From: a virus
Strand: one strand, 5' to 3'
Length of the DNA: 48,140 bases
IMG/VR virus record: IMGVR_UViG_3300035180_001575
Location: 1 to 48,140 of that record
Below the pieces are notes generated by a model. It did no database searches and had not been told where the DNA came from. It saw nothing but the letters and a program-made list of their open reading frames with translations. Positions within the stretch are counted from its first letter, which is position 1, and each line of letters begins with the position of its first letter. Positions 1,290-39,359 of this stretch are shown in pieces. The translations under genes were made by a program, and so were the position numbers.

Positions 1290-1994
1290 ATGAACATAAA
1301 CATACAACCCATTGAAAAACGAGTTGGCGGCGACGGTTTTACACTTGACGTTCATTCCATCTTTTACACCATTCAGGGAGAAGGCCCGCACACAGGTCGG
1401 CCTGCTGTATTTCTTCGCCTAGCTGGTTGCAACCTGCAATGTCCCGGCTGCGATACAGAGTACACAGAAGGGCGCGAAACCCTTAGCATCCAAGAGATTA
1501 CCGCACGCATTGAGCGAAGCTACTCTCACATAGCCTTCTGGCACACTCCCATGATTGTAATTACGGGTGGGGAACCTTTTCGCCAGAACATTGCAGAACT
1601 TTGCAAGAACCTTACGCGGTACTACCACGTTCAAATTGAAACCAATGGGACACTCGGAATCGAAGACCCAACGGCATTTCGTAATGTGGATATTGTGTGC
1701 AGTCCGAAATCTGGTAAAATCCACTACAGCATACTATCTTCTGCCAACTGGTATAAGTATGTGCTTCACCACGAAAGCGTGTCGGAAGCGGATGGCCTGC
1801 CTATACTGGCGCTTGACCACAGTGCTAGCCCACAAGTCTGCCGCCCGCCAGTGGGTGCCCCAGTCTACTTGCAGCCTATGGATTGTAAGAACGATCGTAT
1901 TAATCGGCTGAATATGGAGGCTGTTCTTAAAAGCTGCCTCAAGTATGGCTACATCTTGCAAATTCAAACACACAAAATTATTGGAATCGAATAA
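1290..1994 (+). CDS. queE: 7-carboxy-7-deazaguanine synthase (radical SAM)
   Basis: QueE converts 6-carboxytetrahydropterin to 7-carboxy-7-deazaguanine, the radical SAM step of preQ0 synthesis. The 234-aa protein shows the family signature TIQGEG (27-32), the iron-sulfur cysteines C47, C51 and C54 in CNLQCPGC (CX3CX2C), the SAM-binding ITGGEP (91-96), ETNGT (about 117-121) and CSPKSGK. Length is normal for the family. The gene ends in TAATG, its stop overlapping the queD start by one base, so the two are translationally coupled. The ribosome site ahead of ATG 1290 is weak, but this start gives the usual short N-terminus. Confidence 0.95.
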   Translation: MNINIQPIEKRVGGDGFTLDVHSIFYTIQGEGPHTGRPAVFLRLAGCNLQCPGCDTEYTEGRETLSIQEITARIERSYSHIAFWHTPMIVITGGEPFRQNIAELCKNLTRYYHVQIETNGTLGIEDPTAFRNVDIVCSPKSGKIHYSILSSANWYKYVLHHESVSEADGLPILALDHSASPQVCRPPVGAPVYLQPMDCKNDRINRLNMEAVLKSCLKYGYILQIQTHKIIGIE

Positions 1995-2452
1995 TGTTTA
2001 TATCTACAAAAGAGTACGGACATGAGCTCGGCCTGTCTGCCTGTTTTCGCCAGTGGCGTGCAGAAAGCCATTGCCGCCTATTGCACGGATACGCACTTGC
2101 TGTCAAACTTACCTTTGGCGCAGTGGAATTGGATGTGCGTAACTGGGTGGTGGACTTTGGTAGCCTAAAATCCTTGAAACAAATTTTGCAAGATACGTTT
2201 GATCATACCCTGTTGGTGGCGGAGGACGACCCGTGGCTGCATAAGCTAAAAGAACTTGAAATCTATGGGCTGGCGCGGGTTGTAGTTGTCCCTGCTTGCG
2301 GTTGCGAAAAGTTTGCAGAAATGATCTTTGAAGTCACCGAAATATGGCTAAAGGACAATGGGTACATTCCCCGTGTCAAACTAATTGCTGTGGAAGTAAA
2401 AGAACATGGTGCTAACTCGGCTATTAAACTTGCAGAAGGAGCACAGCTATGA
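1994..2452 (+). CDS. queD: 6-carboxytetrahydropterin synthase, variant metal site
   Basis: QueD family (6-pyruvoyl-tetrahydropterin synthase fold), converting dihydroneopterin triphosphate to 6-carboxytetrahydropterin. The 152-aa sequence keeps the catalytic cysteine and one zinc histidine in HCRLLHGY (C27, H31), the DH pair (D70, H71) and a glutamate in GCEKFAE (E105). Two of the three usual zinc histidines are changed: the FxAAH position is Phe18 and the usual HGH is HGY (Tyr33). His26, next to the catalytic cysteine, could substitute. Position between queE and folE, with overlaps on both sides, leaves little doubt of its pathway; the altered site may mean a divergent active site. Confidence 0.88.
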   Translation: MFISTKEYGHELGLSACFRQWRAESHCRLLHGYALAVKLTFGAVELDVRNWVVDFGSLKSLKQILQDTFDHTLLVAEDDPWLHKLKELEIYGLARVVVVPACGCEKFAEMIFEVTEIWLKDNGYIPRVKLIAVEVKEHGANSAIKLAEGAQL

Positions 2453-3045
2453 ACGAAGCATACAAAGACTTGCCAGAAGAAGCCCGTGCAGCCATCAAGC
2501 AAGAAGTTATTTACGACTTGCTTGCAGAAGTAATTGGGCAAGATCCGAAACGCGAAGGTTTGTCCGAAACTCCTGCCCGTGTGGTCAAGGCTTGGGAATT
2601 CTGGACAAGTGGCTATGCACTCAAAGCAGAAGACATTCTTAAAGTATTTGAGGATGGCGCGGATGGCTATAACGAAATGATTGTTCGTAAAAACATACCA
2701 ATCTATTCGCACTGTGAGCATCACCTTGCAGCCATTATTGGTCGCTGCACAATTGCCTATATCCCTAACGGAAAAATCGTAGGGTTGTCCAAAATGGACC
2801 GTCTTGCAGATATGTTTGCCCGCAGACTACAGGTGCAAGAACGTATGACCACACAAATTGCGGATGCCATGTATTCGATTCTAACTCCCTTGGGTGTTGG
2901 TGTGTGGATAAGCGCAAGACACCTTTGCGTAGAATCCCGAGGTGTTAATAACCAAGACTCCGAGACTGTTACCTGTGCTTTGCGTGGTGTATTTCAAGAC
3001 CGACCAGAAACACGTTCTGAGTTTTTATCTCTCGCAAGGAGCTAG
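2449..3045 (+). CDS. folE: GTP cyclohydrolase I
   Basis: FolE opens GTP to dihydroneopterin triphosphate, the first step of the preQ0 pathway. The 198-aa protein has the family core: HCEHHL (zinc ligands C89 and H92), the conserved GLSKMDRL segment, FARRLQVQER and ARHLCVESRG (H158, third zinc ligand C160). The length is near that of bacterial FolE. The ATG overlaps the queD stop by four bases (ATGA). The phage thus supplies its own entry enzyme rather than relying on host folate synthesis. Confidence 0.96.
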   Translation: MNEAYKDLPEEARAAIKQEVIYDLLAEVIGQDPKREGLSETPARVVKAWEFWTSGYALKAEDILKVFEDGADGYNEMIVRKNIPIYSHCEHHLAAIIGRCTIAYIPNGKIVGLSKMDRLADMFARRLQVQERMTTQIADAMYSILTPLGVGVWISARHLCVESRGVNNQDSETVTCALRGVFQDRPETRSEFLSLARS

Positions 3046-3046
3046 T

Positions 3047-3491
3047 ATGTTAGCAGGATCTGTTAAACCAATGTCTGAAAAACTTAAAAAGTACAAACTT
3101 GATGAGAAAACTGGTTGTTGGCTTTGGACAGGTTCTGTTGACAAAAACGGCTATGGGCGCATGCGCGAATCTGATCACGGTGTAGTTTGGTCTGAGCGTG
3201 CGCCTAGAGCAAGTTATTGAGAATTTAAAGGGCCAATTGAAAATTGTTTAATGGTTCTACATACTTGCAATACACCTGCTTGCATTAACCCCGAGCAATT
3301 ATATCTAGGCAATAGTAGACAAAATGGCACGGATATGGTTGCTGCGGGGAAATGCAGGAAAGTTTAAAGCAACAGGAAACAAGAATGGTATGTTTGGCCG
3401 AACAGGAGCTTTAAACCCTATGTTCGGTAAGAAACATTCTCTAGAAGCCATTGCTAAAATGTCCCAACCGAAACCAAGGCGTATAGCCTAA
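3047..3491 (+). pseudogene. Broken HNH endonuclease with NUMOD3 repeats
   Basis: An ATG one base after the folE stop opens a frame reading CWLWTGSVDKNGYGRMR, a typical start of an HNH homing endonuclease. TGA at 3218-3220 interrupts it. The same frame continues at once with EFKGPIENCLMVLHTC and NTPACINPEQLYLGN, the HNH core with its Cys pair, then stops again at about 3366. Shifting by one base from 3363 gives GNKNGMFGRTG and NPMFGKKHSLEAIAKM, NUMOD3-type DNA-binding repeats, ending at 3491. At least one nonsense change and one frameshift have therefore inactivated it. It sits in the folE-queC gap, as a free-standing homing endonuclease would. Confidence 0.85.
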
Positions 3492-3586
3492 AATAACCCG
3501 TGGCGGTGCTACCCCTAGCCCGCCGCGTTTTGGCCTGCTGTAGCCCCGGCTAGTAGGCTGCATACCCACAATTTATAGGTGCAACA

Positions 3587-4321
3587 ATGCAAAAAGTATT
3601 ACTCTCCTCCGGTGGTATGGATTCTTGGCTTCTGGCCCACGAGCCAGAACTTGCTGGTGCAATCCACTTGTTTGTCGACATTGGACAAAAGTACACCAGC
3701 AAAGAACGTACCGCATCTGCGGACCTTGCGTTTGAGCTGGGTGCAACTTGGGAACGTGTGCAAGGTCCCAACCTCGGCCAGTACGAGCACAGCACGGGAA
3801 TTATTCCTTTCCGCAATGCGCAGATGCTTTTGTTGGCTGGTCTGTACGGAGAGGAAATTTACTTCGGCGTTATTGCCGATGAAATTAATAGCGATAAAAG
3901 CCCCGAGTTTGTGCAAGCCATTCAGGACACCATGAATATTAGCCACAGGGCACAGTATTGGACGCATGGGAAGAACTACAAGATACTTACGCCATTTCGC
4001 CAGTACACAAAGAGCGAATTGGTACGGCGTTTCCTAGCGAATGGCGGAAGCCTTGACCGATTGCTTACATCGGTATCCTGCTACGATGCGGGAGACCAAC
4101 ACTGTGGTCGTTGCCCCAGTTGTTTCAAGCGCTGGGTTGCATTGGTAAATGCTACCAACCAAGATAACTGGGAGCAGTGGGGCTTTGTGCAACATCCCTA
4201 CACTTGGAAGTCGCGTGGAGAGTGGTACACAAAGATGAAGGATTACAGCGAAGAACGCGCCGGGGAAATTTTTGGTGCCTTTGTTACTGCTGGCGAAATG
4301 CTTACGCTTAAAAAGAAATGA
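3587..4321 (+). CDS. queC: 7-cyano-7-deazaguanine (preQ0) synthase
   Basis: QueC uses ATP and ammonia to turn 7-carboxy-7-deazaguanine into preQ0. The 244-aa protein starts with the PP-loop SGGMDS (8-13) and carries the zinc cysteines C165, C173, C176 and C179 in CYDAGDQHCGRCPSC. No N-terminal glutamine amidotransferase domain is fused, unlike the Gat-QueC of archaeosine-making phages, so the expected product is preQ0 itself. The stop overlaps the dpdA start by four bases. ATG 3587 is chosen because the P-loop follows almost at once. The gene is cut off from folE by the dead HNH element. Confidence 0.95.
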   Translation: MQKVLLSSGGMDSWLLAHEPELAGAIHLFVDIGQKYTSKERTASADLAFELGATWERVQGPNLGQYEHSTGIIPFRNAQMLLLAGLYGEEIYFGVIADEINSDKSPEFVQAIQDTMNISHRAQYWTHGKNYKILTPFRQYTKSELVRRFLANGGSLDRLLTSVSCYDAGDQHCGRCPSCFKRWVALVNATNQDNWEQWGFVQHPYTWKSRGEWYTKMKDYSEERAGEIFGAFVTAGEMLTLKKK

Positions 4322-5250
4322 ATCTTTTCCTTGCCGCTGTCTATACCAATAACTATTGCGATGGGCAACCGCGCAATGCCGAACTAAACGAACGCGAAAA
4401 AGAAATTTTCCGTGGGATACCAAACATACTCGAAAGTTACCATTATGTTGAAAAGCAACAATATGTTGATGCAATGCGTGCTAATGGTGCCAAAGTTTTT
4501 CTTGATTCTGGTGCTTTCTCTGCTAAGTCTCTTGGGGTTAATATCGATATTAATAATTATTGCGACTACATCAAGCGCAATGCTGATATTATCCGTGTCG
4601 AGGATGGTGTACTCATGGCATCGGTACTTGACGGAATTGGCGACCCATTAAAAACTTGGCAGAACCAACTCTACATGGAGTCTCAAGGTGCAACCCCTTT
4701 ACCCTGTTTCCACTTTGGCGAAGACGAAAGGTATCTCGAATGGTATATTGAGCGATACCCATATATCACAATCGGAGGCATGGTTCGTACTAAAGCCGAA
4801 GATGTTATGCAATGGCTTGACCGTATATGGAACAGGTACTTGGTAGATGGAGCAGGTCGGCCAAAAGTTAAAGCCCATGCATTCGGAGTTACCACAATAT
4901 CTCTCATGGAACGGTACCCGTGGCATAGTGTTGACAGTTCCTCCTGGATTCAAGCGACGGCTTTTGGAAGTATTTACACATCAGAATATGGCCCCATTTG
5001 CGTGTCAGATCAATCTCCAAGCAGGCAAGACATGGGACGGCACTTTAGCACCTATTCTGAGATTGAAAAGCACCAGCTTTACAAACTTCTGGAAGCAAAA
5101 GGGTTCAGCTACGAGCGTTTATCCAAAGTATATCAAAGCCGCGCAGGGTACAATGCGTTAGGCTATATTGAGCTGGGCAATTTATTAAACGAACACTTTA
5201 TGAAAGCTGACGGTATGTTAGATGTTTCCAAAGTGCAACAATTATTTTAA
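4318..5250 (+). CDS. dpdA: DNA 7-deazaguanine transglycosylase (phage DpdA)
   Basis: A 310-aa protein of the phage DpdA group, distantly related to tRNA-guanine transglycosylase, which swaps guanine in DNA for a 7-deazaguanine base. Seen in the sequence: FLDSGAFSAK (D63) matching the DSGxF motif of the family, VLDGIGDP (104-110), IGGMV (152-156), HAFG (187-190) and VDSSSW (D206), a TIM-barrel-like series of strand-end motifs. D63 and D206 are the likely catalytic pair (inference). It directly overlaps queC, so the precursor enzymes and the inserting enzyme are made together. The assignment rests on motifs plus context. Confidence 0.9.
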   Translation: MNLFLAAVYTNNYCDGQPRNAELNEREKEIFRGIPNILESYHYVEKQQYVDAMRANGAKVFLDSGAFSAKSLGVNIDINNYCDYIKRNADIIRVEDGVLMASVLDGIGDPLKTWQNQLYMESQGATPLPCFHFGEDERYLEWYIERYPYITIGGMVRTKAEDVMQWLDRIWNRYLVDGAGRPKVKAHAFGVTTISLMERYPWHSVDSSSWIQATAFGSIYTSEYGPICVSDQSPSRQDMGRHFSTYSEIEKHQLYKLLEAKGFSYERLSKVYQSRAGYNALGYIELGNLLNEHFMKADGMLDVSKVQQLF

Positions 5251-5251
5251 T

Positions 5252-5836
5252 ATGAACATACCCGATTTTAAACACAGTAACAGTAAGTGGGCAAAAACTG
5301 CGGTTGTCGAAGGAAAACAATACCAGACAAAATCTTGCGAAGTGTGGATGAAGATAAAATTTCGCTGCAATAGCCAAGCCTGTCATTCCCGGCAACCTGC
5401 TTATATTGGTTGCACAATGTCTCAAGAGTTTGAGGATTTCCAGTTCTTTGCAGAGTGGTGTCAAACACAAATTGGTTACGGCTTGCCGAATTACCAATTG
5501 GACAAAGATCTTTTAAAAGAAGGGAACACTATTTATTGTAAGGAATTTGTAGGTTTTATTCCACAAAGCCTTAACAAGTTCTTCGAAGTTAAAAATAAAG
5601 TTTTACCTTACGGAGTATTCCCATGCGCAAATAGTGATAACTACCAAGCAGTTATCACAGTTGACGGTAAAAAGAAGTACCTTGGCGTTTACAAATCTAT
5701 TTTGGATGCTTTTACAATTACTAGAGTGCATAAAGAAGCCGAAGCAAAGAAATGGGCACAACGGTTAAAGGACGGCGAATTTGTTATCGACCCACGTTAT
5801 ATCGAACGTATGAAAACTTGGAGTGTGCCATGTTAA
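5252..5836 (+). CDS. HNH/AP2-type homing endonuclease
   Basis: 194 residues from the ATG one base after the dpdA stop. The middle part (YQLDKDLLKEGNTIY, FIPQSLNKFF) matches the C-terminal half of phage HNH endonucleases, and the C-terminal part (YQAVITVDGKKKYLGVYKS) is an AP2-like DNA-binding domain. The classic His-Asn-His residues are not all evident, so activity is uncertain. Several Cys residues (positions near 45 and 55) could bind zinc. It is wedged between dpdA and the clamp gene, overlapping the latter by seven bases, and is most likely a mobile passenger rather than part of base modification. Confidence 0.8.
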   Translation: MNIPDFKHSNSKWAKTAVVEGKQYQTKSCEVWMKIKFRCNSQACHSRQPAYIGCTMSQEFEDFQFFAEWCQTQIGYGLPNYQLDKDLLKEGNTIYCKEFVGFIPQSLNKFFEVKNKVLPYGVFPCANSDNYQAVITVDGKKKYLGVYKSILDAFTITRVHKEAEAKKWAQRLKDGEFVIDPRYIERMKTWSVPC

Positions 5837-6783
5837 CATCTTTGAAGTTTTGTGCAGGTTCCGTTGCGAAAAAAGATTTCGTGATCGATTTAAAACATTT
5901 TGCAATAGAGAACGGGCGCATTCGTGGCTTCAACGGTGTACTTGCCCTTAGCACGCCCATACCCTTTGATATCGATTGCAATCCAAATGCGGAGCAGCTT
6001 ATAAAGGCTGTGTCTAAGTGCAACGACACAATCCAGTTGAGTCTTACCAAAGCAGGCCGCTTGTCTGTTAAGTCCGGTGTATTCAAAGCCTTTATCGACT
6101 GCGTGCAGGGTGAAACAAATCATGTGGAACCGGAGGGAGAGTTTGTAAACTTTGATGGGGAGTTACTTCTCAAAGGCATACAGGCATGCGCAGCGTTTAT
6201 TGGAAGCGATGCTAGCCGTCCGTGGGCGAATGGTGTGCTTATCAAGGGGCAAAGTATTTTTGCCACAAATAACGTTATGTTGGTGGAATACTACTTGGGT
6301 TCCGATTTCCCAATTACCGTCAACATTCCCAAAGCGGCTGTAAGGGAGATGCAGCGCATAAACGAGGCACCCATTACAGCGCAGGTAACGGAAAGAAGTA
6401 TTACGTTCCACTACACTGGTGACCGCTGGTTGCGAACACAGCTTTATGCAACGGAGTGGCCCGACCTGTCTAAGGTGCTAAACCGTCCGTCCGAACAGGT
6501 CCCCTTAGACGAGCGTATTTTCGAAGGCTTGGAATCTGTTAAAGCCTTTGTGGATAAAATGGGTACGATATTTTTAACACCAGAGGAAATGCGCACGCAC
6601 GCCGATGAGCAAGAGGGCGCAGGGTTTGCATTGGAGGGGTTTGGGTTTGAGGGTAAATACAATATTGAGATGTTAAACCTGCTAAAGGACACGGCAACCA
6701 CAATAGATTGGAGTACCTACCCCGGCCCCTGCATGTTCCAAGGCGATCGTATTCGCGGTGCGATAATTGGCATGCGTAAATAA
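5830..6783 (+). CDS. DNA polymerase sliding clamp, DnaN-like
   Basis: 317 residues from ATG 5830 (an ATG in the end of the endonuclease gene; the longer frame from 5752 would overlap it deeply and is not used). The repeated beta-strand pattern, the segment FASDASRPWANGVLIKG-like region around 110-125, and the C-terminal end resemble a shortened bacterial beta clamp, which would encircle DNA and tether the polymerase. Its place next to a DNA polymerase gene supports this. Sequence similarity to DnaN is weak by eye, so a different replication accessory protein cannot be excluded. Confidence 0.65.
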   Translation: MLTSLKFCAGSVAKKDFVIDLKHFAIENGRIRGFNGVLALSTPIPFDIDCNPNAEQLIKAVSKCNDTIQLSLTKAGRLSVKSGVFKAFIDCVQGETNHVEPEGEFVNFDGELLLKGIQACAAFIGSDASRPWANGVLIKGQSIFATNNVMLVEYYLGSDFPITVNIPKAAVREMQRINEAPITAQVTERSITFHYTGDRWLRTQLYATEWPDLSKVLNRPSEQVPLDERIFEGLESVKAFVDKMGTIFLTPEEMRTHADEQEGAGFALEGFGFEGKYNIEMLNLLKDTATTIDWSTYPGPCMFQGDRIRGAIIGMRK

Positions 6784-6849: not shown

Positions 6850-8853
6850 ATGGCAATTCGCGCAGATTCTATTGGGCTGTTTTGGGAAGACGAAGTTAAG
6901 GTCAAGGCCCCACCAGTAGAAAAGATTAAGCGCACTCCGCCAGAACGTGTTTGGGAGAACCCCGACTACTTACCAGACCTAGAAATTGCCAAGCTGTTTA
7001 AGCCTGTGTTCTACGAAGAACACGAGTTGGCACAAATATCCGAACCGCTGGTATTTGACTCCGAGATTTATCCAAACTATGTGCTGCTAGCCTTCCGCGG
7101 AATAGACTCTAAAAAGTCCGTGTACTTTGAGATAGACAACAAGCCTTGCGGGCGCACTGCGCATCTGCCAAAGCTAAAATGGCTTTTGGAACACAAGTGC
7201 ATTATTAACTTCAATGGCCGCAAGTTCGACTTTGTTATTGCCGCCTTAGTTCTACACGGCTGTACAACGGAACAACTGTGGGATGCAACAGCTATGCTTA
7301 TCGAGCAAGGTGCGCGACCACAAGATGTTCTTGGAAAATACAAGTGTCCTAGACTGGGTAAAATAAACCAAATAGATTTGATAGACCTAACCGCCCTAAG
7401 CCCCGGCTTGAAGGTGTGTGCGGGTAGGCTGCACGCGAAGCGCATGCAGGACCTCCCGTTTGTACCCGGTAGGGCATTGACGGAAGACCAAATAGCTATT
7501 TTGTTCATGTACTGCTTTAATGACTTGGATAATACAGAGTTGCTATACCGTAGTCTGTTGGAACAGATTGCGGTGCGAGAAGATACGGGTAAGCGCTATA
7601 AGCTAGACCTGCGTAGCCACTCTGACCCACAAATGGCAGAGGCTATTATTTCCAGCGAACTAAAACGCATCACTGGTGCAAAGTTCTTCCGTCCAACCGC
7701 CCTACTTCCCGGGACGTGGTACAGATACCAAGTACCAAATTTTATCCAGTTCCAAACCCCAATGCTTAATGCGGTGTTGGAGAACGTTAGGAATGCTATA
7801 TTCCGTGTGTCGGAAGCAGATGGCAATATTATTATGCCAGAGGAATTAGCGGCAGGGACGGTCGACATAGCAGATGGTAAGTACCAGATGGGTATTGGTG
7901 GGTTGCACAGTACAGAAAGTTCTGTGTGCCATGTTGCAGACGAAAACTACTTTATTGCGGATACAGATGTTACCTCTTACTATCCGACACTAATTCTAAA
8001 CGCTGGCATCGCCCCAACCAATCTGGGTCGGGACTTCTTGAAAGTTTACAATAGCATTGTGAAAGAGCGTATTGCGGCGAAGCATGCTGGCAATAATGTG
8101 GTAGCAGATTGCTTAAAGATTGTGGTTAACGGAACATTTGGCAAGTTAGGCAGTAAGTATTCCATCATGTACGCGCCTAACTTAATGCTACAGGTAACCC
8201 TGACCGGGCAGCTTTCTTTGCTTATGCTTATTGAGGCATTTGAACTGGCAGGCATACAGGTTATATCGGCCAACACTGACGGCATTGTGGTCAAGTGCCT
8301 GCGTAGCAAGGAAGCCCTATTTAACGCGATAGTAAAAGGCTGGGAGCAGCATACCGGGTTCGGTACAGAGGAAGTTCGTTACAAGGGTGTGTACAGCCGG
8401 GACGTGAACAATTACTTTGCTGTGTACGAAAAACCACAGAAGAAAAAGCAGTTCAAGTTAAAAGGCGTTTACAGCGAGACGAACCCAAAGAAGAACGCTG
8501 TAAATGAAGTATGCATTGATGCTGCTACTGCCTTCATGGCGAATGGTACGCCTATTACGACCACAATACGCGAATGCCACCATCTGCGTAAGTTCACCAC
8601 CATGCGCCGGGTTAAGGGCGGAGGGGTAAAAGACGGGCAGTACCTTGGGAAGATAATTCGCTGGTACTACAGCACGGAGGCACAGGGGGAGATTGTGTCT
8701 GCTACAAGCGGTAATAAGGTAGCTAGAAGTGAGAATGGCAAGCCTTGTATGGACTTGCCGGATGAGTTGCCAACAGACATCGACTATGCTTGGTACGAGG
8801 CCGAGACGTACAAAATATTGAAAGAGATTGGTTACGCTAGTAGGCCGCTGTAG
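6850..8853 (+). CDS. Family B DNA polymerase with proofreading exonuclease
   Basis: 667 residues. Exonuclease motifs: FDSEIY (D70, E72), NFNGRKFDF (N122, D127) and YCFNDLD (Y221, D225). Polymerase motifs: A, DVTSYYP (373-379); B, KIVVNGTFGKLG (K423, N427, G431); C, ANTDGIV (D477), where the usual DTDS is NTDG. GIGGLHS (348-354) fits the linker between the two activities. The length is short for the family, and the neighbouring clamp-like gene argues against protein priming. It would replicate the phage genome, and has to accept 7-deazaguanine-containing template if the modification cassette is active. A predicted promoter precedes it. Confidence 0.92.
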   Translation: MAIRADSIGLFWEDEVKVKAPPVEKIKRTPPERVWENPDYLPDLEIAKLFKPVFYEEHELAQISEPLVFDSEIYPNYVLLAFRGIDSKKSVYFEIDNKPCGRTAHLPKLKWLLEHKCIINFNGRKFDFVIAALVLHGCTTEQLWDATAMLIEQGARPQDVLGKYKCPRLGKINQIDLIDLTALSPGLKVCAGRLHAKRMQDLPFVPGRALTEDQIAILFMYCFNDLDNTELLYRSLLEQIAVREDTGKRYKLDLRSHSDPQMAEAIISSELKRITGAKFFRPTALLPGTWYRYQVPNFIQFQTPMLNAVLENVRNAIFRVSEADGNIIMPEELAAGTVDIADGKYQMGIGGLHSTESSVCHVADENYFIADTDVTSYYPTLILNAGIAPTNLGRDFLKVYNSIVKERIAAKHAGNNVVADCLKIVVNGTFGKLGSKYSIMYAPNLMLQVTLTGQLSLLMLIEAFELAGIQVISANTDGIVVKCLRSKEALFNAIVKGWEQHTGFGTEEVRYKGVYSRDVNNYFAVYEKPQKKKQFKLKGVYSETNPKKNAVNEVCIDAATAFMANGTPITTTIRECHHLRKFTTMRRVKGGGVKDGQYLGKIIRWYYSTEAQGEIVSATSGNKVARSENGKPCMDLPDELPTDIDYAWYEAETYKILKEIGYASRPL

Positions 8854-8941
8854 CCGCTTAGGGCCTTTGGTAAGGGGTAGCCCCACCCCGGCAAAATAGG
8901 CGGCTTGGTGCCCCATTTTGCTGCCCTGCCGCCCTACTGCA
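8854..8941. terminator. Structured gap between convergent transcripts
   Basis: This 88-base gap separates the plus-strand polymerase gene from the end of the minus-strand late operon. GGCAAAATAGG (8890-8900) and the later CCCCATTTTGCT form an imperfect hairpin, and GGGGT/ACCCC lies before it. A bidirectional terminator is expected here; no clean U-tract is visible, so the call is weak. Confidence 0.35.
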
Positions 8942-9388
8942 CTATTTAACAGGCCATGCGTCCGTTAAGGTTTGGACGTCGTTGGCGTGTCGATCAGCTT
9001 TTTCCGCCACCCCTGTATATCGCTCTGTGCATTGGTTGAGTACGTCACTGAGGGTAGCGGCTCGCTTAATGCAGGCTTCGGCGGAAAGACCTGCGAGTTG
9101 TCGCTGGGACTCTTCAAGCTCCACCCGCAGCCGCTCACGCTCGTCACGAGCAAGGCTAATAGCAATACGCAAATCGCGATCACGAACCTTCGCAGCATTC
9201 TGCGCTTCAATAACCGTATCTGCACGGCGAATAGACGTCGCGGCATTATCTCTAACTTCAACCAGTTTCTGTTCTGCATTGTCTTTCTCCTGTGAATCTC
9301 GGTGCCAGCCTTGTGCCGTCCAGCCTGAAAAGAATGCACCTGCCAATAGGGCAATAGTTCCAAGAATGTTATAAGGGAATGGAATCAT
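8942..9388 (-). CDS. i-spanin (Rz-like inner membrane lysis protein)
   Basis: 148 residues: one N-terminal membrane segment (residues about 8-24) followed by a long charged coiled coil rich in Arg, Glu and Asp, the layout of Rz. Together with the embedded Rz1-like lipoprotein it would fuse inner and outer membranes at the last step of lysis. It is the last gene of the minus-strand late operon, and its start overlaps the end of the small membrane protein gene by four bases. Assignment rests on topology and the embedded partner. Confidence 0.85.
   Translation of the reverse strand: MIPFPYNILGTIALLAGAFFSGWTAQGWHRDSQEKDNAEQKLVEVRDNAATSIRRADTVIEAQNAAKVRDRDLRIAISLARDERERLRVELEESQRQLAGLSAEACIKRAATLSDVLNQCTERYTGVAEKADRHANDVQTLTDAWPVK
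8965..9198 (-). CDS. o-spanin (Rz1-like lipoprotein) nested in the Rz frame
   Basis: 77 residues read in another frame wholly inside the i-spanin gene. MLRRFVIAICVLLLALLVTS is a signal peptide and VSGC gives the lipobox with lipid-bearing Cys24. The mature part has Pro residues (FPPKPALSEPLP) as usual for Rz1. ATG 9198 is chosen because the longer upstream frame lacks a membrane signal. Outer-membrane partner of the i-spanin. Confidence 0.85.
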   Translation of the reverse strand: MLRRFVIAICVLLLALLVTSVSGCGWSLKSPSDNSQVFPPKPALSEPLPSVTYSTNAQSDIQGWRKKLIDTPTTSKP

Positions 9389-36166: not shown

Positions 36167-36907
36167 TTAAGCTCCTGAAATTTGTAATTTAGTTGCAACA
36201 AAATTTTCCAAGTCTACAAAAGACAAAATGTCTATAGCTTCTTTTTGAAACCCTGGAATTGTTTGAGAAAGAATTGGAAATGAATAGGGCACAAGTTGCT
36301 CAATAGCTAAAGCTCTGTGTCCACTCATTTCAAACTTAACACATTTGTTAAGAACATAACCGCTGCGCGATAAATTCTTTTTGTGTGTTGATAAACGGCG
36401 TTCCATTTGATTAGTTATACCATAACCTGTAAAAGATTCGCCAGCTTTTTCTGCTGCCAAAATATAAAAGGTTGCAGGTAATTCTCTTTTGAATCCCGAT
36501 GTTGCGCAATTGGGACAGCCATTACCGCCCATAGGTTTGATAAAATTAACAATAGTAGAAGAGTTCCAAGTGTGGCTACACACAAGACACTCTAATTGAA
36601 TTTTGGAAGAGCTGTTTACTTGCCCTGTTACAAACCCTAAAAACTTGCAAAATTTTTCCTCCGCAATTCTGGATATTTTTACGGCATACTGCGCAGGTGT
36701 CCATTTGCGGCAAGACCCACATCCGCAAGGAAATTGAAACTTCTCAAGTCGGTCTTTAGTTGTTGTAAAAATTCCGTTGCCAAAAAGCTCGGTATCCTTT
36801 GCACAGGTGTGACAAAATACTTTATAAGTAATTAACCCAGCATCCCTGTTAGAAGATATAACTTCCAACTGCAACGCTAGGCCAAATCTGGTTCCGGGTT
36901 TAAGCAT
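36167..36907 (-). CDS. GIY-YIG-like homing endonuclease with zinc-binding modules
   Basis: 246 residues from ATG 36907, one base after the terL stop. Four CxxC-like groups (C32/C35, C61-C66, C107/C110, C131/C134) precede a GIY-YIG-like segment: ATFYILAAEKAGESF, then GYGITNQMERRLSTHKKN. In the core the usual GIY and YIG are FYI and YGI, with Arg171 and His175 in their expected places. It is probably a free-standing homing endonuclease placed between terL and portal. It ends in the residues ISGA, the same last four as TerL. Catalytic competence is uncertain. Confidence 0.78.
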   Translation of the reverse strand: MLKPGTRFGLALQLEVISSNRDAGLITYKVFCHTCAKDTELFGNGIFTTTKDRLEKFQFPCGCGSCRKWTPAQYAVKISRIAEEKFCKFLGFVTGQVNSSSKIQLECLVCSHTWNSSTIVNFIKPMGGNGCPNCATSGFKRELPATFYILAAEKAGESFTGYGITNQMERRLSTHKKNLSRSGYVLNKCVKFEMSGHRALAIEQLVPYSFPILSQTIPGFQKEAIDILSFVDLENFVATKLQISGA

Positions 36908-36908
36908 A

Positions 36909-39359
36909 TTAGGCACCGCTAATCTTAACTCTGTGTACGGTATGGTCCGCGGATAATACCATGTAACGGCAGTCATCAGCAATGTGATCTTCAGCATCGG
37001 TATTAACGTCATCGGGGTCCCGTGTATCGCGTGCAATACTTGGGACAGTGCGAATAAAGTCGCGGCAGGTGTTGAACACGTAGAAACCCGGCTTGTCTTC
37101 GGCCTTGGCAACTGCATCCATTCTATCGCGCATCAATTCCCAGCCATTCTTACGGCTCCCGGGACGCTTATCCGCTGGTATCCAAAATACACCTTCTACT
37201 TCCATATTTTGTCCAATGGAGGCTTCGTCTGTTACCGCATAAATAGCGCTATCCGCAGGCCCCGGCTGCACACGGTTTTGGATACGCATTTGTGTTTCGC
37301 GTATCAGTATTCCTTGTGCTACAACCTTGGCAGGCATGCGCAAACCTTCGTTTGCACGCCCGTCGCTACCATACCACTCTCCTATGCGGAACAGAGTTTT
37401 ACGTGGGAAGGAAATTTTACGCCCGTCTTTCAGCGTTGCATCCGTACCATCGCTTACAGCCCACCAGCCAACGCTGAAAGGTTTAGAACTACCCCAGTCA
37501 AAACTTCTGGTAACGCGCCAGCTGAACGGAATTTCGAACGGCTCGATAACATGCTTCGTGGCATCCCACAAATCGTCAAACATGCCGCCGCTGGTAATGT
37601 CCCAGCTACCTTCTAGCCAAGCCTTACGCTTGTTCTCATCTGTAATCGACTCCAGCGTCTTAATGTACTCTTCGCCTAAGTACGGGTTTTCCTTCACACT
37701 TCCAAACAAAGCACAACGCTGGTTGCCTTCTTTATCTTTGATAATTTTACCGTAAGGTGCTGGGTCAATGAAATAATTTTTGACCCAAGCATGGCCGACG
37801 CCATAGGGGTTCGTGCTACTGCGTATAAGCCGGGGCAAGTGTGGTAGGCGTGCGGTGCCTTGGAAACTGCTACGATTGCAAGATTTCATGGATTCATAGC
37901 ATGCAATGCTGGGCCAACTTGTCAACTCTTCCCATCCTATAAATGGATACTCGTGTCCGTGGTAGCTCCAGTAATCTTCTTCATTCTCAAACGCCCGCAG
38001 CAACAATTCTTCCCCCGTAGGCCAAACCCACTTCAAGGAGGACGAACCTGCAAGGAATCTTGGCTGCTGTGCACTCTTATTGAACCAGCGTTTGGACTTG
38101 GCTATAATGTCGTCCAAGTGCTTATAGTTGCGCCGAAAAATGATGCCACGAAAGTAATCACCATAGCCACGACCACAATACTGAGCAAACGACATCAGCA
38201 TGGCATCCGTGTTGTGTGTGACAACAAAATCGTTTGTTACAAACAAACCATCTGGATGCGCAATTTTAATGCACACAGTTTCTTCTGGTTCTTGTTCTTC
38301 AATGCTACACATCTTGTTTGTAAGATGTTTGTGCATGTACGGTTTAATGCGGTCTATTTTGCGTTTTAAACGAAACGGGCTAAATTTTCCTGCTGTTTGA
38401 ATATAAACGTTGTAGGCACGCTGATGGGCAATGCCAGTTTCTAATCCGTAGTTGCCAGACAGACTACTTGTTAGCGTTGCCTTAGCACCAAGAGAGCGGG
38501 CTAGGTACTGCACGTCCTTTGCCAGTTGTTCGCTAACACTGCAAAATGTAACATAGCCTTTTTTATCAATTGTTCCGTCTGTGTCCATTAAACCTTGCAA
38601 CACAGCAAGACGCACTTCTGGAGAATTATTTAAATAAACGGTTGGCACAAACTTTGTATGAGAACGAGTTTCCTTTAAACCTAATTCAACAACTTGATCC
38701 CGAATTTCTTGTGTTGGGATAAAACAACGCAAGCCGCTGCGAGGATCTGGAGAAACTTCGTAAATTCCGTTGGCGAGAACGTACTGTGCAAGTTCTTCGT
38801 CAACTGTGCAATAACCCATACGCTGCGCAAACGTGCCATCTCCAAGCATTAGGCCCAGAAGGTAAGCGTTCATTGGCACGTAACTTTCGGCCATAGGCAT
38901 TTCTAATCTAGCAAGAGTAGGAATTGTAATTCTTTTCCAACCAGTATTAAAATGCTCTAATAATACAAGCATTTGCACGTTCTTAAACGTCCCGGCTGGT
39001 ATACGGCTATTGTCTGCAATATGCACGTTCCAAATGTGCTGATCGTCGCAACGTGCCACGGCACCATCTGCAAAAGTAATTTTGAAGACGCGTCGTTTGC
39101 CTTGCGGGAACACGCCGATAATAGGTGAAACTGTTCCGTCAGGGCAGCTAACCAAGTCCCCAACTCTAAGTTCGCCAATAGGACGCGGGCCGCTTGTTGT
39201 ATAAACGGTCTCGCTTAATGGCAATCCCTTTCCTGGACCGCGTGTTCCTGCAAAGCAGACTTCTCGGACCGGGGACGAAAGAAATAAACTCTGACTTCCT
39301 GGTAGGGCCTTCCAAATAGCATACTGCTTTGGAGCTGTGGGAGGGGTACCGAAGAGCAT
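36909..39359 (-). CDS. terL: Terminase large subunit precursor carrying an intein
   Basis: 816 residues as coded, 477 after removal of the 339-residue intein. TerL cuts concatemers and drives DNA into the procapsid. The host Walker A motif GTRGPGKT is interrupted between Lys44 and Thr384, so the ATPase cannot work unless spliced. After the intein come FIGWEELTSWP (Walker B with the catalytic Glu), SSTNPYGVGHAWVK, and the C-terminal nuclease with SFDWGSSKPFSV and EDHIADDCRYMVL. The start overlaps the terS stop (TAATG). The ORF ends KISGA, three bases before the endonuclease gene's ATG. Confidence 0.93.
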   Translation of the reverse strand: MLFGTPPTAPKQYAIWKALPGSQSLFLSSPVREVCFAGTRGPGKGLPLSETVYTTSGPRPIGELRVGDLVSCPDGTVSPIIGVFPQGKRRVFKITFADGAVARCDDQHIWNVHIADNSRIPAGTFKNVQMLVLLEHFNTGWKRITIPTLARLEMPMAESYVPMNAYLLGLMLGDGTFAQRMGYCTVDEELAQYVLANGIYEVSPDPRSGLRCFIPTQEIRDQVVELGLKETRSHTKFVPTVYLNNSPEVRLAVLQGLMDTDGTIDKKGYVTFCSVSEQLAKDVQYLARSLGAKATLTSSLSGNYGLETGIAHQRAYNVYIQTAGKFSPFRLKRKIDRIKPYMHKHLTNKMCSIEEQEPEETVCIKIAHPDGLFVTNDFVVTHNTDAMLMSFAQYCGRGYGDYFRGIIFRRNYKHLDDIIAKSKRWFNKSAQQPRFLAGSSSLKWVWPTGEELLLRAFENEEDYWSYHGHEYPFIGWEELTSWPSIACYESMKSCNRSSFQGTARLPHLPRLIRSSTNPYGVGHAWVKNYFIDPAPYGKIIKDKEGNQRCALFGSVKENPYLGEEYIKTLESITDENKRKAWLEGSWDITSGGMFDDLWDATKHVIEPFEIPFSWRVTRSFDWGSSKPFSVGWWAVSDGTDATLKDGRKISFPRKTLFRIGEWYGSDGRANEGLRMPAKVVAQGILIRETQMRIQNRVQPGPADSAIYAVTDEASIGQNMEVEGVFWIPADKRPGSRKNGWELMRDRMDAVAKAEDKPGFYVFNTCRDFIRTVPSIARDTRDPDDVNTDAEDHIADDCRYMVLSADHTVHRVKISGA
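38211..39227 (-). mobile_element. Class 3-like intein with LAGLIDADG endonuclease
   Basis: 339 residues, spanning precursor positions 45-383. Block A is GLPLSETVYTTSG, with Gly where Cys or Ser should be the first nucleophile. Block B has DDQHIW (His63, Trp66, intein numbering). The C-terminal blocks read TVCIKIAHPDGLFV (Cys319) and FVVTHN followed by Thr (Thr337, His338, Asn339). Trp/Cys/Thr in these places is the hallmark of class 3 inteins, which start splicing from the block F cysteine. LLGLMLGDG and LQGLMDTDG (intein about 123-131 and 210-218) are the two LAGLIDADG motifs of a homing endonuclease. Confidence 0.9.

Follow-up and report, generated by a model that had tools for sequence, protein, structure and literature searches.

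Gene content of the cassette

The DNA analysed here, called the window throughout, is the whole linear IMG/VR record IMGVR_UViG_3300035180_001575 (48,140 bp). At its left end lies a putative 7-deazaguanine DNA-modification cassette that includes a divergent ATP-dependent ligase of the QueC family (PF06508); we use the label QueCx for this protein and for the window-type PF06508 lineage. The cassette consists of the following features:

1290..1994, + strand: QueE-like radical S-adenosylmethionine 7-carboxy-7-deazaguanine (CDG) synthase (phrog_2076, E 2.5e-55; PF04055, E 1.6e-6)
1994..2452, + strand: QueD-like 6-carboxytetrahydropterin synthase (PF01242, E 2e-14; phrog_2389, E 6e-42)
2449..3045, + strand: FolE, GTP cyclohydrolase I (PF01227, E 8e-66; TIGR00063, 206 bits against a cut-off of 181.6)
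3071..3490, + strand: remnant of an HNH homing endonuclease (intact homologue in contig L010; identical overlap in contig L078)
3587..4321, + strand: QueCx, divergent PF06508 ATP-dependent ligase (PF06508, E 7e-18)
4318..5250, + strand: DpdA (DpdA1 type), DNA-guanine transglycosylase (phrog_887, E 1e-77)

The order, all on the + strand, is thus QueE-QueD-FolE-[broken HNH]-QueCx-DpdA, and the overlaps of 1-4 nucleotides (nt) between QueE and QueD (1 nt), QueD and FolE, and QueCx and DpdA (4 nt) fit a single operon. Genomes of this phage type are about 56-71 kb, so the record is a fragment and part of the genome lies outside it. Its gene order and homologues match those of the phages CAjan and NP1 and suggest a Queuovirinae-like bacterial phage; the Queuovirinae hallmarks found are the que genes and DpdA beside the clamp and polymerase, whole-genome criteria, such as the genome size of ~56-63 kb in this subfamily, not being applicable to a fragment. 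In the first 25 kb, megablast gave no nucleotide-level match among 50,697 phage records.

An earlier inspection of the letters without database searches (the sequence-only reading) had placed FolE, QueD, QueE, QueC-family and DpdA genes at 1290-5250. Pfam and PHROG profile matches, well beyond chance level, recover all five at these coordinates, and this gene content bears out the proposal of a phage 7-deazaguanine DNA-modification cassette. The further proposal of a complete GTP-to-preQ0 route is not supported in that form: the enzyme families are all found, but the QueC is from a separate PF06508 clade without Y35 and Y131, and in QueD two columns of zinc ligands are changed.

Residues and fold of QueCx

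QueCx scores far below canonical QueC proteins. Its match to PF06508 is weak and partial, covering only positions 87-208 of the hidden Markov model (HMM). The canonical QueCs of contigs L006, L007 and L010 reach 173-176 bits over the full length of this profile; CAjan QueC scores 251 bits on it. For the window-type proteins the highest-scoring stretch yields 46-66 bits and in most cases is confined to the second half. The NCBIfam QueC equivalog gives QueCx 42.9 bits against a cut-off of 150.3 (controls: CAjan 243.3, L006 164.9), and the QatC equivalog 22 bits against a cut-off of 280, no search for QatA, QatB or QatD having been made. A tblastn search of phages with the window protein gave no Escherichia phage among the matches listed, the best being fecal and Bacteroides phages at 33-37%.

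In Escherichia coli QueC, Y35, R99, Y131 and Y189 are needed for preQ0 formation, and Y35A or Y131A abolishes it (PMC13329287). In the related protein Cap9, Tyr115 stacks the base and Asp117 reads its Watson-Crick edge; Bacillus subtilis QueC has the same pair, and QatC has two Thr instead (PMC13279940). The ATP loop SGGMDS (residues 8-13) is present in all QueCx proteins, except that one has T for the terminal S. The R-N motif reads IPFRN in the window, with R76 and N77 invariant and Ile rather than Val in first place, and the linker before it is deleted. The zinc site CY...CGRCPSC is also kept (C165-Y166, C173, C176 and C179, with x7 spacing after the first Cys). At position 35 (IGQKYTSKE in the window) most QueCx proteins have I, A or V and none has Tyr. 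NSDKS takes the place of the YPDC motif: it aligns as N--SDKS, with D103 as the equivalent of Asp133 and a gap at the stacking Tyr (Y131). Invariant residues new to QueCx are E99, N101-S105, R121, Q123-W125 and SCFKRW, and the C-terminus is extended by ~50 aa. Proteins of other phages are 41-55% identical to that of the window, with NSDKS, QYW and SCFKRW invariant; such strong conservation indicates that QueCx is under selection. It is expected still to bind a deazaguanine, in a changed pocket.

These features bear on the view that the operon is an ordinary preQ0 cassette, in which a fast-evolving canonical QueC converts CDG to preQ0 and DNA carries 7-cyano-7-deaza-deoxyguanosine (dPreQ0) as in CAjan and Rosebush. 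The retained ATP loop, R-N motif, four zinc cysteines with the Tyr that adjoins the first, and Asp133 equivalent agree with it, and the same four enzyme families occur with DpdA in the group 2 phages of Hutinet 2019 (PMC6884629). On the other hand, two residues that the E. coli enzyme needs for preQ0 formation, Y35 and Y131, are absent from QueCx, which also stays well under the equivalog cut-off that CAjan QueC (243 bits) clearly passes. We give this view slightly less than an even chance, taking into account also the operon locus and the phylogeny described below.

An AlphaFold2 model of QueCx (mean pLDDT 90.5) has an extra C-terminal helical part. The nearest solved structures are Cap9 of type IV CBASS (9NTO; Z 18.2, root-mean-square deviation 2.4 over 174 residues), QatC (17.1) and QueC (16.9 and 16.5), with other PP-loop enzymes at ~12 or less; in profile comparison too, Cap9 (E 1e-14) comes before QueC (E 2.6e-5). 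Fold alone is no proof of function, but it sets QueCx in the company of enzymes that use ATP to activate CDG or a CDG-like acid. With canonical QueC (E. coli and B. subtilis 3BL5; Cluster 1 of PMC13329287) it shares the fold (Z 16.9), SGGxDS, R-N, the zinc cysteines with Tyr and the Asp133 equivalent; it differs in the missing Y35 and YPDC Tyr, the deleted linker, the C-terminal extension and the sub-threshold equivalog score. With Cap9 it shares the best profile and fold match, a compact core and the CDG-type Asp, but Cap9 retains Y-x-D-C where QueCx has SDKS. Moreover, Cap9 acts on the N-terminal Gly of an adjacent CD-NTase partner, whereas the neighbours of QueCx are QueE, QueD, FolE, DpdA, HNH and clamp genes, none of them a CD-NTase.

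The closeness to Cap9 raises the question of whether QueCx halts after the first half-reaction, joining ammonia to CDG to yield ADG, which DpdA would insert to give the amide base dADG in DNA. Cap9 and, as proposed, QatC perform only the amide-forming half-reaction (PMC13279940), YPDC is absent from QueCx as it is from QatC, and dADG is known in phages CP220 and MED16 (PMC8306585). However, in CP220, a dADG phage, QueC retains F-PDC as well as Tyr at position 35. The loss of YPDC is thus no mark of a dADG maker, and the strictly conserved QYW loop could provide another aromatic residue. We regard this outcome as possible but rather unlikely. Because its QueC retains FPDC, CP220 was also dropped as a model for a residue rule; the QueCs of Rosebush-type and Gordonia phages have Y-x-DC, so that QueCx departs from both phage types whose products have been measured.

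It is less likely still that QueCx represents a new functional class, coupling CDG not to ammonia but to a different amine, on a small molecule or protein, and so producing either a base hitherto unseen in DNA or a conjugated protein, perhaps of anti-CBASS or anti-Qat function. The remodelled active site with its new invariant set (NSDKS, NISHR-QYW, SCFKRWVAL), the extra C-terminal helical part and the closeness to Cap9 are consistent with this, and a change of amine has precedent in the family, since Cap9 joins CDG to a protein N-terminus (PMC13279940). A partner gene is missing among the neighbours listed above, and the one-for-one exchange with canonical QueC beside DpdA suggests a role on the free base.

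Among the canonical-type phage QueCs, the CxxCxxC zinc cysteines are absent in 47 of 72 (e.g. YDGQYPPIGHDHATLLRAKGF; L006, L007 and L010), and [YF]xDC is kept in 70 of the 72. A zinc-less QueC lineage thus seems to be common in uncultured Queuovirinae-like phages.

Distribution and position of QueCx

A DpdA alignment used as query recovered 80 related loci from IMG/VR, in which the QueC type was assigned by HMM. Canonical QueC is present in 72 of these, always in the order QueE-QueC-QueD-FolE-DpdA. QueCx is found in three: two read QueE-QueD-FolE-QueCx-DpdA like the window, and the third, another contig from the phage of the window, ends before FolE. The remaining five loci end before QueC, and none of the 80 carries both types. 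QueCx thus occurs only in the FolE-DpdA gap among these loci, and the 1-nt overlap of QueE and QueD leaves no QueC remnant between them in the window. This different operon locus argues against QueCx being one fast-evolving QueC orthologue.

Searches with the window type and then with its alignment identified QueCx in at least seven uncultured phages (L005/L026, L027, L028, L029, L012/L013, L030/L033 and L031). In L012, L027, L029, L030 and L031 it accompanies far more divergent DpdA proteins. The cultured Bacteroides phage BS162P1 (OP172706, L015) has a QueC-like protein (5995-6723) in which PDKDD replaces YPDC; the gene lies directly 5' of a DpdA gene, with QueE nearby. It differs in its long branch, its 34% identity to the window QueCx over 187 residues and its divergent DpdA. 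Our literature search found no report of DNA modification in BS162P1.

Some of these loci show further peculiarities. In BS162P1 the protein following DpdA (7671-8426) has a match to phrog_887, the long DpdA family, that is restricted to the C-terminal part; this protein possibly represents a distinct domain of the DpdA proteins that modify DNA. L028 (contig 3300049212_000062) encodes a second, different PF06508-like PP-loop protein of 211 aa between DpdA and clamp (7967-8602). FolE of L030/L033 (6812-7792) is in two pieces ~360 bp apart, possibly owing to an intron or insertion.

Phylogenies and the HNH remnant

In the QueC tree, a 100/100 branch separates QueCx, the BS162P1 protein and a fecal phage protein from the QueCs of E. 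coli, CAjan, CP220, a mycophage, a Gordonia phage and bacteria, from Gat-QueC and from Cap9; the BS162P1, fecal phage and Cap9 sequences are long branches whose exact placement is unsure. This separate clade, too, speaks against a fast-evolving orthologue. A bacterial origin of QueCx was considered and rejected: matches in genome contigs are only 23-31% identical, and those placed on the tree fall outside the QueCx clade.

The genes that follow the cassette include the clamp, which served as a marker for phage kinship:

5222..5836, + strand: HNH endonuclease directly 3' of DpdA, outside the pathway (phrog_953, E 6e-42)
5827..6783, + strand: DNA polymerase processivity factor (sliding clamp), start codon placed from relatives (phrog_947, E 3e-74)
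6850..8853, + strand: DNA polymerase, family B-like, in syntenic position beside the cassette in Queuovirinae (CAjan and NP1 maps; phrog_1252, E 2.5e-192)

In the clamp tree the window falls with the canonical-QueC phages L006, L007 and L010 plus L008 and L009 (98/96), and its grouping with the QueCx phages L005/L028 is rejected (approximately unbiased test, p = 0.004). The DpdA tree unites L006-L010 in a clade (100/99) without the window and joins the latter to L005 and L028 (85/83). Since the two trees conflict, the history of QueCx and DpdA differs from that of the clamp, and the trees lend moderate support to the idea that QueCx and DpdA moved together as a block.

Directly 3' of FolE, the HNH remnant is interrupted by an in-frame TGA (~3218) plus a frameshift. 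L010, with canonical QueC, has an intact homologous HNH gene at exactly the same place (8735-9274), and homing endonucleases lie just 5' of DpdA in NP1 and L009. The FolE-DpdA junction is accordingly an insertion site. The ancestor of the window phage probably resembled L010, and the tree conflict together with the broken HNH gene points to a later swap of QueC. An assembly error as the cause of the broken gene was rejected, since the second contig L078 is identical over the overlap, although L078 is perhaps not an independent sample.

The broken HNH gene within the operon and the altered zinc ligands of QueD could also be read as signs of decay, with QueCx and the inserted HNH genes marking a degraded operon and unmodified DNA. 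We find this very improbable: none of the five pathway genes has a disrupted frame, their motifs are conserved and their overlaps tight, QueCx is kept at 41-55% identity in other phages, which requires selection, and inactivated homing endonucleases occur often and have no effect on adjacent genes.

DpdA and the inserted base

DpdA of the window is 58-64% identical to CAjan/NP1-type DpdA and has the motifs LDSGAF, LDG, CFHFGED, IGG and SVDSSSW. The DpdA1 features found are LDSGAF, SVDSSSW and CFHFGE in common with related DpdAs, and the two catalytic Asp motifs and conserved His as in TGT. D63, D105 and H132 are identical in 73/73 DpdAs associated with canonical QueC (the 72 loci plus CAjan, the set used for all residue counts on these DpdAs). 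Residue 133, next to the conserved His (window ~4714-4716), is Phe in the window, CAjan and Rosebush-type phages. It is Phe or Tyr in QueC phages, Ala in the three Gat-QueC phages 9g, NP1 and MiCath, and Met in Dp-1, a dPreQ1 phage. The pattern is suggestive, and residue 133 may track the inserted base, in a sample biased by one search pattern that itself picked F/Y there. Phe133 in the window agrees with an ordinary preQ0 cassette. Lys70 is found in 3/3 DpdA1s with QueCx and in 0/73 with canonical QueC, but also in the Rosebush-genus phage Godines, which likewise fits that view. Lys70 and Arg157 were dropped as base signatures, the first for its presence in Godines and the second for its presence in 6 of the 73.

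Amidotransferase and QueF searches

The sequence-only reading had proposed that QueC has no fused amidotransferase and that QueF is lacking, while noting that either gene might lie in the unseen part of the genome. PF06508 is the only domain in the protein. PF13537 (GATase_7) has no match in the window or in ten relatives, and both positive controls, NP1 and 9g, were detected; a 60-aa probe taken from the Gat domain of NP1 failed to detect 9g, and its negative result was discarded in favour of PF13537. For QueF, and for QueF-L, which was covered solely through the same profile, PF14489 gave weak matches in the window and the ten relatives (19-27.7 bits against a cut-off of 27.3, barely exceeded in two relatives). 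In the window the sole match falls within FolE, which is a T-fold homologue, and those of the relatives lie at the FolE position, so QueF was rejected. Three longer QueCx relatives (62, 64 and 60 kb) are also without GATase_7 and without QueF beyond a weak FolE-type match, which lessens the concern about the unseen segment.

Archaeosine (via Gat) or preQ1 in the window phage is therefore unlikely, judging from PF13537 and PF14489 searches of an incomplete genome in which ArcS and later tailoring enzymes were not searched for. The earlier preference for dPreQ0 over these two bases stands in so far as no expected route to either was found; dADG or another CDG-derived base is a less probable alternative to dPreQ0.

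Comparison with known systems

Group 2 phages have DpdA with FolE, QueD, QueE and QueC and no amidotransferase, and dPreQ0 has been measured in CAjan and Rosebush; without DpdA, CAjan loses both DNA modification and protection from restriction (PMC6884629). In the window the gene families of this group are present and the amidotransferase is absent, but the QueC active site and the QueD zinc site deviate. CAjan (Seuratvirus) resembles the window in its gene families (FolE, QueD, QueE, QueC and DpdA, without an amidotransferase), with clamp and DNA polymerase adjoining; the two DpdAs are ~64% identical over 283 residues and both have F133. CAjan differs in its canonical QueC, located between QueE and QueD and not between FolE and DpdA; the window, moreover, has the altered zinc site in QueD, and its cassette contains no YhhQ gene. 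QueE of the window is 53% identical to that of CAjan and keeps the CxxxCxxC motif (GCNLQCPGC).

The phages 9g, NP1 and MiCath (dG+ measured in 9g) belong to the same subfamily, with homologous QueE, FolE and DpdA and the same neighbours, and in NP1 the FolE-DpdA interval holds a homing endonuclease. They differ in the Gat-QueC fusion between QueE and QueD and in Ala133 of DpdA, whereas the window has no GATase domain.

Proposed pathway

We consider it probable that the cassette is a Queuovirinae-type 7-deazaguanine operon that lost canonical QueC, with QueCx as a CDG-activating ligase in its role. This reading builds on the gene content, the displacement, the altered active site and the fold. 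FolE, QueD and QueE would convert GTP to CDG, the presumed substrate, which QueCx would adenylate at the carboxylate with ATP and then amidate. DpdA would exchange the product for guanine in phage DNA after replication, and the modified base would probably shield the DNA from restriction enzymes. QueCx would have replaced the canonical QueC of the QueE-QueD gap and settled between FolE and DpdA, probably along with its DpdA. The likeliest base appears to be dPreQ0, with about an even chance of being correct, in accordance with the one-for-one QueC replacement and with Phe133 of DpdA as in dPreQ0 phages. The next candidate, at clearly lower probability, is dADG; the loss of Y35 and Y131 and the closeness to Cap9 favour it or another amide.

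Several observations weigh against a ligase in the role of QueC. Nitrile formation by QueCx is doubtful, since position 35 has no Tyr and the NSDKS segment leaves a gap at Y131. QueD of the window keeps the catalytic Cys, Asp-His and Glu in the alignment, and two of its zinc-ligand columns are altered, Phe standing in the first His column and HGY in place of HGH. This variant (HGY, without the first zinc His) occurs in 43 of 75 related QueDs and with both QueC types, and those HGY-type QueDs that were aligned retain the catalytic residues. The support of the DpdA tree for a joint transfer is modest (85/83), a host QueC could supply preQ0 independently, and the genome is incomplete.

Other features of the window

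Just 5' of QueE (467-1165), the window encodes an Ala/Lys-rich protein with a long poly-Ala tail, whose conserved core of ~70 aa is found 5' of QueE in most relatives too. An 816-aa terminase-like open reading frame (36167-39359) overlaps by ~200 bp with one that matches endonuclease/HNH; an insertion or intein in the terminase gene is a possible cause.

Implications for phage DNA modification

Modification of guanine in phage DNA is a known means of evading host restriction enzymes. The phage 7-deazaguanine cassette as such has been known since 2019 (CAjan and Rosebush, with dPreQ0). What appears to be new, with priority not certain, is the displaced QueC lineage and its steady link to DpdA in several phages. 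The bases of phages are predicted by rules of gene content, in which Gat stands for dG+, QueF for dPreQ1 and neither for dPreQ0. The window cassette shows that the presence of QueC is not one state, as a QueC-family ligase without the residues required for preQ0 can be swapped in. BS162P1 is cultured and carries a related gene, and is thus open to liquid chromatography-mass spectrometry. Because relatives of QueC couple CDG to proteins as part of the defence against phages, a phage QueCx with its remodelled pocket beside DpdA would offer a direct test of what determines nitrile, amide or conjugate.

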